21,896 bases of DNA from a virus. Under the pieces are notes generated by a model, which worked only from the letters and a program-made list of their open reading frames with translations, was not told where the DNA came from and ran no database searches. Positions within the stretch are counted from its first letter, which is position 1, and every line of letters starts with the position of its first letter. The position numbers and the translations under genes are program-made. Location: positions 1 to 21,896 of the IMG/VR virus record IMGVR_UViG_3300037503_000028. The stretch is one strand, 5' to 3'. Positions 1,655 through 7,476 of this stretch are shown piece by piece.

Positions 1655-2596
1655 TTGGCTCAGGACGCGAAGGCACCCGAACCGCAATTCACGGTCGTCA
1701 CGGACAGGCGGACGGCGTCGGCGGCGGTAAGGTTCTACCGCATCCGCGACTTCGAGAAGTTGCAGCACTACAAGGACCGGGCGCTCGTCTGGGTGAAGCT
1801 CTACGTCGAGCAGCTCGACGACTATGAGTTCATACAGTTGCCGGACGCGGTCAAGTACCACGTCCACGCCCTGATGCTCCTCGCCGCACGCTCGGGCAAC
1901 AAGATCCCGAACGACCCCCTGTGGGTGGCGGCCCGCATCGGCGCGAGCGACCCCGTGGACCTCCAGCTCCTCTTCGCGCGCGGCTTCCTTGAGGAGTGGA
2001 GGCCGCGGCCGCAGGACGCGTACGAGCCGGGCGAGCAGTTGGAGCTTCCGGCCGACGGGCAGGCCCCGACCCCAGCCGCAGCCGGGCCGAACCCTTCCCC
2101 GCCGGCCGCTTCCGGGCCTGATAGCAACTTGCTAGCAACTTGCTATCAAGTTGCTAGCAAGTTGCTAGCACAGAACAGAACAGAACAGAGCAGAGAAGAC
2201 ACAGATACAGACACGGCGCCCGCTAGCGCGGAGCGCCTGTGTGAGTGCTGCGGTGTCGGTGTGCGCTCTGAGTTCTCGTTGCCGGAGGCCGCGGAACTGG
2301 TGAGGCACTGGAAGGCCGAGGGGCGGAGGGTCGGCGGCCGCCCCGTCGAGAACGTCTACGGGCTGGCGCGGACGATCCATCGCGAGGGGACGGCCGACGA
2401 CGAGCTGAGGCTGCTCCTGCGGCCGCCCCCGCGGCGCCCGTTCGCCGACGAGCCGTGCCCGACCTGCTTCGGCGGGAAGCTCTACACGCCGGAGCCGGGC
2501 AAGGGCGCCAAGCCGTGCCCGGACTGCGTTGACGAGACGGGCAGGCGGACGGGCAGGCGCGCGCTGGACACCGACGCGGCCGGGCGGCCGCCGTGA
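1655..2596 (+). CDS. Phage replication initiator/replisome organizer-like protein
   Basis: The 313-residue ORF starts at TTG 1655, six bases after a perfect GGAGAAGGAG site. Residues 25-118 resemble the winged-helix N-terminal domain of phage replisome organizers: FYRIRDFEKLQHYKDRALVWVK, then VKYHVHALMLLAARSGNKIPND, then the DLQLLFARGFLEEW helix. A low-complexity Pro/Ala linker (about 125-155) follows, then a segment whose DNA holds an 11-bp iteron array. The C-terminal part has CECC near 194 and a zinc ribbon at 267-291 (CPTC...CPDC). Placing an origin inside the initiator gene follows the phage lambda O plan. It probably melts the origin and recruits a host or phage helicase. No separate helicase gene is visible in the window. 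Confidence 0.72.
   Translation: MAQDAKAPEPQFTVVTDRRTASAAVRFYRIRDFEKLQHYKDRALVWVKLYVEQLDDYEFIQLPDAVKYHVHALMLLAARSGNKIPNDPLWVAARIGASDPVDLQLLFARGFLEEWRPRPQDAYEPGEQLELPADGQAPTPAAAGPNPSPPAASGPDSNLLATCYQVASKLLAQNRTEQSREDTDTDTAPASAERLCECCGVGVRSEFSLPEAAELVRHWKAEGRRVGGRPVENVYGLARTIHREGTADDELRLLLRPPPRRPFADEPCPTCFGGKLYTPEPGKGAKPCPDCVDETGRRTGRRALDTDAAGRPP
2122..2170. repeat. Iteron array, candidate replication origin
   Basis: Four tandem 11-bp units lie head to tail: TAGCAACTTGC at 2122 and 2133, TATCAAGTTGC at 2144 and TAGCAAGTTGC at 2155, then a partial TAGCA at 2166-2170. Each unit has a near-palindromic GCAAsTTGC core, and the first two units are the reverse complement of the last two, so the array is also one large inverted repeat. 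The 11-bp period is not a multiple of three, so conservation acts on DNA and not on protein. The site lies within the replication-initiator coding sequence. Confidence 0.75.
2171..2214. repeat. CAGAA-type purine-rich repeat beside iterons
   Basis: Directly after the iterons the top strand reads CAGAA, CAGAA, CAGAA, CAGAG, CAGAG, then AAGACACAGATACAGACAC. It is almost free of T and much less GC-rich than its surroundings. Next to iterons, such asymmetric tracts often form the unwinding region of an origin. This role is inferred. Confidence 0.5.
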
Positions 2597-3206: not shown

Positions 3207-3274
3207 AAGCGCCGCGCCGCGGAAAACTCAGTAAAAATGCGGGTCCGGCGGGCGGCGGGGGCGTCGTGTCGCTT

Positions 3275-4327
3275 ATGAAAACGCCGATTATAGAAAGCGA
3301 CCGAACGGAGCCCCCGGCCCGGCCCCGCATCGCGCTCGTCCCGCCCGGCGCGGCCGCGCTCGACCGGCTCGCCGCGCTCGACACCCTGAACCCCGCGCGC
3401 CGCTACCTGAACACGCTCTCCGGCCCTTCCCGGCGGAGTATGCGCTCCAACCTCCGGAGGGTCGCGCGACTCCTCAACTGCCGCCTCGACGAAGTCCCCT
3501 GGGAGAGGTTGCGCGCCGACCACCTCAAGGCGCTCAGGGCCGCGATGACCGACCAGGGCCTTCTGCCCGCGACCATCAACGTGACGCTGGCGGCCTTGAG
3601 GGGTGTGGCCCGGCAGGCTTACGAGATGCGCGCGATGGAGCCGGAGGACTACCGGCTGGTCGCGCGCGTGGGGAACGTCCGCGGGGGGCGCGTCTCGGGC
3701 GCGGCCCGCGCGCTCGACGTGCGCGAGGTGGGCGCACTCCTAGAGGCGTGCGCCGCCGACAAGACGCCCGCGGGCGCGCGCGACGCCTGCCTCGTGGCGC
3801 TCCTCGCCGGGGCGGGCCTGAGGCGCGCCGAGGCCGTCGCGCTCCGCCTCGAAGACTGGAGGGCGCGCACGCACACGCTCAGGGTGCTGGGGAAGGGGAA
3901 CAAGGAGCGGCTCGTCTACCTCGAAGACGGCGGGGCGCGCCGCGCGCTCCTGGACTGGCTGAAGGTGCGGGGGCGGGAGCCCGGCGCGCTCCTCGTCCCC
4001 GTGGCCGCCGGCGGCCGGCTTGAGCTGAGGCATCTGACGGGGCAGGCCGTCTACGACGCGGTCCGCAAGCGGAGAGCCCAGGCGAGCATCCGCCGCCGCT
4101 TCTCGCCCCACGCCCTGCGCCACTTCTTCGCCGACCAGGCCATCCGCGAGGGCGGCGAGGTCAAGGCCGTGTCGGAGCTTCTGGGCCACGCCTCGGTGCA
4201 GACGACCGAGATTTACTACCACGGCGGCGAGCGGGCCAAGCGGCGGGCCGCGGCGACCGTCAGGCTGCCGTATGGGGCCGGGCGCGGCCGCCGGAAGAGG
4301 AGGCGCAGGCGCAGGCGCCGTTCGTGA
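3275..4327 (+). CDS. int: Tyrosine recombinase / phage integrase
   Basis: Site-specific recombinase for phage integration and excision. From ATG 3275 it is 350 residues. It has a core-binding SAM-like domain at about 36-125 (NPARRYLNTLSGPSRRSMRSNLRRVARLL) and a catalytic domain at 145-330. Visible catalytic residues are R183 in GAGLRRAE, K207 or K210 in GKGNKER, H279-x-x-R282 in HALRH, H305 in LLGHAS and Y314 in TTEIYYH. The start is uncertain. GTG 3266 and GTG 3203 (overlapping the stop of the upstream gene) are in frame, and ribosome binding sites are weak for all three. The C terminus is odd, ending in an Arg tail (RKRRRRRRRRS). The gene lies inside the early operon and not at an outer edge. 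Confidence 0.93.
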   Translation: MKTPIIESDRTEPPARPRIALVPPGAAALDRLAALDTLNPARRYLNTLSGPSRRSMRSNLRRVARLLNCRLDEVPWERLRADHLKALRAAMTDQGLLPATINVTLAALRGVARQAYEMRAMEPEDYRLVARVGNVRGGRVSGAARALDVREVGALLEACAADKTPAGARDACLVALLAGAGLRRAEAVALRLEDWRARTHTLRVLGKGNKERLVYLEDGGARRALLDWLKVRGREPGALLVPVAAGGRLELRHLTGQAVYDAVRKRRAQASIRRRFSPHALRHFFADQAIREGGEVKAVSELLGHASVQTTEIYYHGGERAKRRAAATVRLPYGAGRGRRKRRRRRRRRS

Positions 4328-5402: not shown

Positions 5403-7241
5403 TTATCCCTGTAGCTGCTCCATGATGTCTGCGAGTTCACGCGGAATGAGACGCACCCTTTGCAGGCTTCTACGAAGGCGGTGTGGATAGATGACATTCT
5501 GTCCGCCTAGAGCCTGCTGGTACAAAGGCATCAAGTGATGACCGTTGCGGTCTATCATCCATCTAGGATACTCAACTACCTTCCCGTTTGTGAATGTAAC
5601 TGCATGAGGCGTTGTTTCCCCTGCCGTTAGCCCGGTAATTAGGGGTTCTACCTGTGACCGGATTGTGCTCGCGATAGACTGTAGTTCTGTTTCAGACAAT
5701 GTACGTATAACATGTTCATTCCCCAGTGAAATGCTCACTCCCGGGACCGGCGGGGCCGTGCCTTGCTCAAGCAGCACTCCGAAGACCACGAACGGGTCGA
5801 GCAGATAATTTTCAATGTTGTATCTGCTCAAGACGTATACCCGCGGCGCAGGGGTGTTGTTAGTGTCGTGATCAATAATTCCCCGAAATAATTGGTCTAA
5901 AGGCTCCTGGTCGAACTTCTCAACCCATTGAGTGACTACGCTCATTCCTCCTCCGACTTTCCCCCGTCCCCTGCCTCGTGACGCCGGCATGAAGACAATG
6001 CTTGGCGACGGCTTTATCGCTCTGGGGTCACGACTGGGGCCGTAATCAGACAGGATGTCTCTGATGGCGCTGTAAAAGTCAACGTCATCCTCATCCTCCA
6101 CGAGCACATAACGAGTGCCGGGAGAGACGATGACCATCCCGGCCGTGAGTAGCCCAATGGCATGCGCCTTTGATTTAGCTTGGGATATCCGCGGTGCGGT
6201 CCGCGACATCTCGAACACTGATCCCTCGGGCGCCAACGCCACGGTCGAGGGGGAGTGCGTCGTCATGATGACTCTGATTTTGTACTGGTCGACGAATACT
6301 TCCTGTATGACATTCATGAACTGGCGCGCCATCGAAGGGTGGAGGTGGGCGTCCGGCTCGTCGAGAAGAAATAGGCGGGGAAAATGGCCGTGATTCTGCG
6401 AGTTGTACAGCCAAAGGAATAACCTGAGTATCAATTTTTCTCCTGAAGAAAGTTCCACCGGTAACAGCGGTATTCCTGTCCGCGTGTCTTCCAAGCGAAA
6501 AACGTATCCCTGCTCAAGTTTCGTCCCTTGCGGAGAGATCGCCCGATAGGGGAACTCTGCGGCTTGCAGGGTCTCATTTAAAACATCCCAGGGGGCGGGT
6601 GGGAGAGTGGTAGTAACCTCTTCGTTCAAGTCTTTTCGCTCAAGCTCTTCCATTAACCTTAATCTGTGGGCGAAGAAGACGTAGGTGATGCCCGAGATCA
6701 CATCTACCTCCTCAAGCATGAAAGAGAAATCATCAGGCAGCTTCTCTAAGACCTGATTTAAGGTCACATTGCCGATTGGTGTGGCTGCTAGATTGAGTGG
6801 GGCTCCTACTAAGCGTTCTAGCCGCGCCCGTTTGGAGCTTATGGTCAGACTGTTTCGGCTTTGCAGATTACTGACCAGATTTACCTTTGTCCGCTCTAGT
6901 TCTGAAACCCCGACTCCCGTAGTGCTCTTTATATCCCACTCATCCGACAAGTAAGCGACTTCATCCGGGCCAAATGTGTCGCCGGTAACTGTGAAATGCA
7001 TCTGATTAATTATGTGAGAGTGGTGCTCGTGCGCCGTGTTAGTGAGCTTATATGCCAGTAACTCAAGCAGTTGGGTCTTGCCGGACCCGTTTACTCCCGT
7101 CAGCACAGCAAGAGGCGGGATGTCCTTCCAGACAATATGGTTGATAGACTTGTAGGCTACCGAGTCGGGGCCGCCGATTTCTATGGTTAACGGGGTTAGA
7201 GAGGTGGTTGAAGTGGCAAGTGGTAAGTTAGGTGTAGTCAC
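5403..7241 (-). CDS. Fused ABC ATPase-DUF4435 protein, PARIS-like defence
   Basis: A 612-residue protein starting at GTG 7241. The N-terminal ATPase has Walker A GVNGSGKT at 49-56, an ABC signature LSSGE at 264-268, Walker B RLFLLDEP at 289-296 and an H-loop MTTHS at 326-330. The C-terminal half has VLVEDEDDVDFY at 379-390, IIDHD at 455-459 and YNIENYLL at 474-481. These are the acidic and IEN motifs of DUF4435, a Toprim-like nuclease fold. In PARIS, AriA (AAA_15 ATPase) and AriB (DUF4435) act together, AriB being released after AriA senses a phage trigger protein and then cleaving tRNA. Here both are in one chain. OLD-family ATPase-nucleases are the alternative. Codon use and GC are unlike the flanking phage genes, so it is transferred cargo. 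Confidence 0.82.
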   Translation of the reverse strand: MTTPNLPLATSTTSLTPLTIEIGGPDSVAYKSINHIVWKDIPPLAVLTGVNGSGKTQLLELLAYKLTNTAHEHHSHIINQMHFTVTGDTFGPDEVAYLSDEWDIKSTTGVGVSELERTKVNLVSNLQSRNSLTISSKRARLERLVGAPLNLAATPIGNVTLNQVLEKLPDDFSFMLEEVDVISGITYVFFAHRLRLMEELERKDLNEEVTTTLPPAPWDVLNETLQAAEFPYRAISPQGTKLEQGYVFRLEDTRTGIPLLPVELSSGEKLILRLFLWLYNSQNHGHFPRLFLLDEPDAHLHPSMARQFMNVIQEVFVDQYKIRVIMTTHSPSTVALAPEGSVFEMSRTAPRISQAKSKAHAIGLLTAGMVIVSPGTRYVLVEDEDDVDFYSAIRDILSDYGPSRDPRAIKPSPSIVFMPASRGRGRGKVGGGMSVVTQWVEKFDQEPLDQLFRGIIDHDTNNTPAPRVYVLSRYNIENYLLDPFVVFGVLLEQGTAPPVPGVSISLGNEHVIRTLSETELQSIASTIRSQVEPLITGLTAGETTPHAVTFTNGKVVEYPRWMIDRNGHHLMPLYQQALGGQNVIYPHRLRRSLQRVRLIPRELADIMEQLQG

Positions 7242-7404: not shown

Positions 7405-7450
7405 GGGGCTTTACCCACAAGGTCAAAGTAAGCAGAGACCTTATATACCA

Positions 7451-7476
7451 CTTTATGGTCAGACTTTATGGTCAGG
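7451..7476 (+). repeat. Tandem 13-bp repeat
   Basis: CTTTATGGTCAGA at 7451-7463 is followed immediately by CTTTATGGTCAGG at 7464-7476, with one mismatch. A related CTTTTATGGTAGA lies at 7391-7403. This may be an operator pair for the divergent or downstream minus-strand gene. Confidence 0.55.

Follow-up and report, generated by a model that had tools for sequence, protein, structure and literature searches.

An Origin within an Initiator Gene?

In the middle of a gene of a virus, a tandem array of short palindromes is followed at once by a strand-asymmetric tract of CAGAA-type units. This raises the question as to whether the DNA of this stretch is a replication origin carried within the coding sequence of its own initiator, a regulatory site, or merely the trace left by a repetitive peptide. 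The window, i.e., the whole stretch of DNA that was analysed, is a 21,896-bp IMG/VR virus record; it is a fragment, and it carries phage genes that include an integrase (3218-4327), a portal and a capsid gene. The element at 2118-2214 is most likely a theta-type phage replication origin located in the linker region of its initiator gene. The analysis shows that the DNA element exists, is conserved as DNA, is associated with replication initiators and, in some relatives, has helicase or loader genes as neighbours; initiator binding, strand opening, helicase loading and origin activity itself are inferred.

The Initiator Gene

The open reading frame at 1655-2596 (plus strand, TTG start) encodes a protein of 313 residues made of an N-terminal domain, a linker and a cysteine-rich C-terminal domain. 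The N-terminal part matches phrog_26426 (“replication protein”) of the PHROG collection with an E-value of 3.5e-7, and no Pfam model matched the protein. Relatives of this protein carry annotations such as replication protein O or DnaD-like helicase loader; by homology, the frame encodes a replication initiator, a function that remains inferred. The N-terminal domain (1730-1990, plus strand), of the FEKLQHYKDR type and proposed to bind the iterons, is kept in about 160 unique relatives; it is 32-76% identical to that of 35 relatives and belongs with the FQHYKDR-type phage replication proteins (phrog_26426). AlphaFold2 models this domain well (pLDDT 87.7), and the linker appears in the model at low confidence and without secondary structure, so that it is predicted to be disordered. 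The C-terminal domain (2201-2596, plus strand), with its CxxC pairs, is modelled at low confidence and is common, among the compared sequences, to only two relatives (L008 and L009). The first-pass annotation of the locus had described the N-terminal domain as replisome-organizer-like; this likeness is supported by family annotation. A RepA_N or DnaD-like replisome organizer would be expected to combine a winged-helix N-terminal domain with a DnaD-like C-terminal domain; a Foldseek search of the PDB with the N-terminal domain returned no significant match, and the similarity to the RepA_N initiators 4pt7 and 5kbj (Z about 4) is tied with that to unrelated folds.

No DnaB-type helicase was found in the 21.9-kb fragment. 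Elsewhere in the window, the minus-strand gene at 5403-7241 encodes an AAA_21-type ATPase similar to AriA and to ATPase-Toprim defence proteins; it sits in a stretch from 5.3 to 10 kb of about 50-59% GC, flanked by DNA of 60-70% or more, and might be defence cargo. The same low-GC stretch holds, between two minus-strand genes, a perfect 13-bp tandem duplication (ACTTTATGGTCAG, 7450-7475).

Five Palindromes and a Strand-Asymmetric Tract

The array consists of five 10-bp palindromes of the TTGCTAGCAA type, one every 11 bp with a 1-bp spacer, spanning 2118-2171. Iteron 1 (2118-2127, CTGATAGCAA) has two mismatches to this consensus, iterons 2 (2129-2138) and 4 (2151-2160) are exact copies of TTGCTAGCAA, and iterons 3 (2140-2149, TTGCTATCAA) and 5 (2162-2171, TTGCTAGCAC) have one mismatch each. 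The mismatch of iteron 3 is the T at 2146, which gives TATC for TAGC exactly where the consensus would make an in-frame TAG stop and thus avoids it. Read along the gene, the units appear as GATAGCAACTTGCTAGCAACTTGCTATCAAGTTGCTAGCAAGTTGCTAGCACAG and are then followed by a run of CAGAA/CAGAG units, the strand-asymmetric tract (2171-2214, plus strand), which is a local version of the (CAGAGA)n tract found in relatives; at the same position, the two nearest relatives carry CAGAA (L008) and CAGAGA (L009). Tandem Repeats Finder reports a period of 11 with 4.5 copies and 92% match for 2122-2170, followed by a 5-bp ACAGA tract (2170-2211).

The array is genuine, and chance falls far short of producing it. 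Within the whole window, the best self-match of 38 bp at a lag of 11 lies at 2122, with 35 of 38 positions matching against a maximum of 26 in 200 dinucleotide shuffles; when the encoded peptide was recoded with synonymous codons, the periodicity, observed at 30/33, reached at most 23 in 1000 recodings. The TTGCTAGCAA unit is absent from the rest of the window record. The GC content of the array is 0.43 compared with 0.64 for the window, and no stretch of the gene is lower in GC than the one that holds the array. The tract itself is about 50% GC, unlike the AT-rich unwinding elements of classical origins.

The first-pass annotation had reported an iteron-like 11-bp tandem array followed by a CAGAA-type tract within the gene, and this description holds. 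It had counted four 11-bp units; the number is corrected to five, and the register of the units is set to TTGCTAGCAA plus a 1-bp spacer because the core that the relatives keep is GCTAGC. Its claim that a combined direct and inverted symmetry makes these iterons unusual fails: palindromes repeated in tandem necessarily show inverted symmetry as well, so that the two symmetries are a single property; the lambda iterons are inverted repeats too (PMC5043065), and the “large inverted repeat” of the window array arises only from the spacer bases C, C, G and G.

Conservation as DNA among Relatives

Relatives were collected by protein-similarity scans from which the best 80 of 325 viral loci and 17 genome loci were retained; the titles of their records include alpha- and gammaproteobacteria, Gemmatimonadota, Nitrospira, Phycisphaerae and Saccharibacteria. 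Nearly all of about 160 relatives carry the two-part element, palindromes and then purine tract, in the linker directly behind the N-terminal domain. In 87 non-redundant linkers, the window included, GCTAGC occurs 151 times where 8.8 occurrences are expected from synonymous codon choice, an excess of about 17-fold, and 95% of these linkers have at least one such site. This null model conditions on each protein sequence; the relatives share ancestry, and the counts are not independent trials.

The distances between GCTAGC sites peak at 10-11 bp (185 compared with 22 expected), and again at 20-22, 30-33 and 42/44 bp, a spacing that follows the periodicity of the helix and not that of the codons. 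Exact sites occupy two codon phases, with 91 and 60 sites, respectively. In the third phase the core contains a TAG stop and no exact site is possible; 68 sites are nevertheless kept there with one substitution, most frequently as GCAAGC (34), followed by GCGAGC (8) and GCTATC (8).

The sequence of the units can change as a set. Xanthomonas phage PBR31 and Limnohabitans phage DC33 carry GATATC units at 11 bp, followed by an unchanged tract; at least 120 matches came from a scan for GATATC with the tract behind it, and the same N-terminal domain family was present in 74 of the 80 loci fetched. One further relative (L125) has GTWACG-type units. Such a concerted switch of the units, with spacing and tract held constant, is what co-evolution of an initiator with its iterons predicts, recognition of the units by the initiator being inferred.

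Two side observations concern the distribution of sites and the integrity of the linker. A second GCTAGC cluster lies inside the DNA encoding the N-terminal domain in 111 of 159 relatives (233 sites compared with 31.7 expected, under a codon model partly estimated from the same genes), often at the codons of the conserved protein motifs LPDASK and IWLLASR, about 32 bp apart; in L015, for example, such sites lie at about 117 and 149 bp from the start of the domain, and L020 also has the cluster. None of these sites occurs in the window, where the linker array is longer instead. Two relatives (L017 and L055) have an in-frame insertion of an HNH-endonuclease-like domain within the linker, at or near the array.

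The Tract as a DNA Signal

Codon usage within the tract departs strongly from that of the genes that contain it. In the protein-similarity set, threonine is encoded by ACA in 90% of cases compared with 25% elsewhere in the genes, arginine by AGA in 70% compared with 13%, and glutamate by GAG in 81% compared with 54%; the tract is thus kept as DNA and not as a peptide. In seven rows of the comparison (L035, L089-L091, L098, L113 and L122), the tract lies on the opposite strand, where it encodes SASASA, SVSVSV or similar peptides and not ETETET. A tree of tract strand needs five changes; it is weakly resolved, and its well-supported branches alone allow a single origin of the reversed form. In a pattern scan for reversed tracts, most of the 20 matches were due to chance or to the element read from the other strand; the matches in L113 and L122 are genuine.

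The first-pass annotation had argued that an 11-bp period out of step with codons points to selection on DNA, and had proposed aligning homologous initiator genes as a check. The comparative evidence supports this argument, and the outcome of the check favours it, as the DNA units persist while the protein varies.

Occurrence beyond the Family

A scan with CAGAGACAGAGACAGAGA only also recovers many initiator-like proteins that the model of the N-terminal domain misses. In 38 unique open reading frames selected by the tract, the DNA upstream of it matches itself at a lag of 11 more than the synonymous null does (0.399 compared with 0.314); lag 11 is the best lag in 16 of the 38, and the repeats vary, reading for example CGCAAACGGAT or GGCAAACCGAT. 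All ten tract-selected proteins that were tested match PHROG families of the replication initiation, primosomal, DnaD-like or O-like kind, and among 46 tract-selected frames the PHROG families matched most often are those of replication initiation, together with DnaD-like and primosomal ones. By comparison, a control hexamer of equal composition led mostly to structural and other genes, with 5 of 44 being DnaD-like. This comparison covers only genes that contain sites and not the frequency of sites. The ETETET stretch may aid some of the PHROG matches, but most matched stretches in the ten-protein test reach well past it. Exceptions exist among the tract-selected frames, e.g., L416 and L423, which encode low-complexity proteins.

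Several individual phages display variations of the arrangement. In Arthrobacter phage TripleJ, a member of an actinophage initiator group (L448, 1887-1960), the annotated gene stops after the N-terminal domain and GCTAGCA-like units recur every 11 bp in the non-coding DNA directly after the stop; ATTAACC repeats follow the array, and no CAGAGA tract was seen there. Microbacterium phage Dropshot gp42 (L447, 1492-2304) has GTCACG-type repeats followed by tandem GTCCC units, a purine tract on the other strand. The RepO gene of Pontimonas phage phiPsal1 (L449, 1057-1863) contains TTCCACTGTGG every 15 bp and then a purine-rich tract, all inside the initiator gene, which amounts to the same design with a different spacing. 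Beyond the near relatives, the exact 20-bp motif occurs in a single contig (L106), which was rejected as a homologue: it is a GCAA/TTGC-rich stretch by a terminase gene, where dense GCAA/TTGC and ATGTGCAA-type repeats and an exact TTGCTAGCAA lie in an open frame (600-900).

Genome Context

Cultured phages are among the relatives, with PhiPLPE gp04 (Iodobacter) and phiV208 gp43 (Vibrio) as examples. In cultured relatives, the gene that follows the initiator encodes a DnaC-like loader (Iodobacter phage PhiPLPE) or a replicative helicase (Cr-LKS3). Among actinophages whose initiator is related or similar, the next gene encodes a DnaB-like helicase (CheeseTouch), or a loader and a DnaB-like helicase follow (Dropshot). 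As a general rule, adjacency to a helicase loader does not stand, since just 4 of the 28 records from related phages contain an IstB/DnaC-like family. In each of six phages, the detrended cumulative GC skew reaches its minimum at a distance of 0.6-3.3 kb from the element; this is expected of an origin and equally of a nearby divergence of transcription, and lends only weak support. No plasmid record matched the N-terminal domain.

Comparison with Known Origins

An origin inside its initiator gene is not without precedent, since the lambda origin, SPP1 oriL and the pSK41 origin are all located in this way (PMC7466680, PMC5043065, PMC6316719, PMC5703833). With regard to the features of such origins, direct repeats are present within the initiator coding sequence of the window and, in the place of an unwinding element, a conserved strand-asymmetric tract adjoins the array, though it is not AT-rich.

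In phage lambda, the origin lies in gene O, where inverted-repeat iterons bind dimers of the O protein and are followed by a tract in which one strand holds nearly all the purines (PMC5043065, PMC7466680). The window shares this anatomy, with iterons of inverted symmetry placed centrally in the initiator gene and a strand-asymmetric purine tract immediately after them; however, the lambda iterons are about 19 bp long and the lambda tract is AT-rich, whereas the window has 10-bp palindromes every 11 bp and a CAGAA/CAGAGA tract that is not. The likeness is one of anatomy, and no homology of the window protein to lambda O is shown. In SPP1, oriL lies in gene 38 and its direct repeats are bound by the replisome organizer gp38 beside a DNA unwinding element (PMC6316719). 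The window likewise has direct repeats within the initiator gene, binding by the initiator being inferred in its case, but the SPP1 unwinding element is AT-rich, unlike the window tract, and a further origin, oriR, lies about 13 kb away in SPP1, whereas the window fragment showed no second site. In the plasmid pSK41, the N-terminal domain of Rep binds four Rep boxes central in rep, and the linker encoded by the origin is dispensable as protein (PMC5703833); repeats in the central linker of the initiator are common to pSK41 and the window, while pSK41 differs in being a plasmid, in belonging to Firmicutes and in the sequence of its iterons. The RepA-like gp95 of Gordonia phage CheeseTouch comes close to the window in having GCTAAGC/GCTAGC at 11-12 bp and a CAGAGA tract in its linker, but its N-terminal domain is of another family. 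The RepA of Mycobacterium phage Miko is sufficient for plasmid replication (PMC7157519); its gene was inspected as a possible direct experimental precedent and rejected, as the element is absent from it.

The first-pass annotation had called the array origin-like and had pointed to lambda O as a gene with an origin inside it. The second statement agrees with the literature (PMC5043065, PMC7466680), and the first is supported, origin function itself being inferred.

Proposed Mechanism and Alternative Explanations

In the proposed mechanism, the N-terminal domains of the initiator would bind the five TTGCTAGCAA units, which at a spacing of 11 bp lie on the same side of the helix; as the units are palindromes, the domains would probably bind as dimers. 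The resulting complex would strain the adjoining CAGAA/CAGAGA tract so as to open it or to offer one single strand. The C-terminal domain, together with a helicase or loader of the phage or of the host, would then load the replicative helicase at the tract.

The most direct objection is that selection acts on a flexible SNLLA/ETETET peptide linker and that the DNA repeat is a mere trace of it. In almost every relative the repeat is indeed translated, and the peptides of the linker look similar (DASxxLAxxxQxAS..ETETE). Against this stand the roughly 17-fold excess over a null model based on synonymous codons, a spacing of 10-11 bp that is no multiple of a codon, strand-reversed tracts that give different peptides, GATATC arrays that encode other residues and, in TripleJ, an array in non-coding DNA; taken together, these make the peptide explanation very unlikely. 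An operator or mRNA hairpin controlling the gene by autorepression or attenuation, with the origin located elsewhere, is unlikely too, if less decidedly so. Initiators often autoregulate, and the hairpin into which the RNA of the window folds is very stable (-38 kcal/mol, z -7.5). However, a hairpin beyond chance (z < -3) is found in only 13 of 83 relatives, arrays of a single unit are unable to form one, and a site in the middle of the gene with a conserved purine tract suits an origin better than an operator.

The element could also be a recombination linker, a conserved boundary at which N-terminal and C-terminal domains of initiators are exchanged. The C-terminal domains are highly variable behind a conserved N-terminal domain and element, the segment of pPR9 comprising the N-terminal domain and the origin differs from that of the otherwise similar pSK41 replicon (PMC5703833), and HNH domains have entered the linkers of L017 and L055. 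As an explanation of the element this is nonetheless very improbable, because it accounts neither for the 10.5-bp phasing nor for the palindromic units nor for the concerted switching of motifs; exchange at this boundary is compatible with a conserved origin and may be a side effect of it. The embedded origin thus remains the best explanation of the element.

Implications

In the literature searched, the two-part element is undescribed; the search covered full text, subscription papers lay mostly outside it, and absence from it is no proof. Origins within initiator genes are already known, and what appears to be new, as far as was searched, is an element conserved across a whole family. The element is a clear case of a DNA function overwriting a protein sequence: helically spaced sites cross the three codon phases and dodge stops by single changes, and inversion of the tract changes the encoded peptide completely.

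For most environmental and temperate phages the origin is unmapped. If the embedded-origin reading is true, a two-part DNA signature would predict the origin and its initiator in hundreds of phages, cultured ones included, of Proteobacteria, Actinobacteria and others. A bolder reading, put forward here as less likely than not, is that a (CAGAGA)n-type tract is near-universal in initiator-embedded phage origins across unrelated initiator families and hosts, reflecting a common factor (host helicase, primase or single-strand-binding protein) or a common mechanism of DNA opening, with upstream 11-bp iterons that are initiator-specific and exchangeable. A shared tract combined with exchangeable iterons would raise the question as to which factor reads the tract and how helicases are first loaded.
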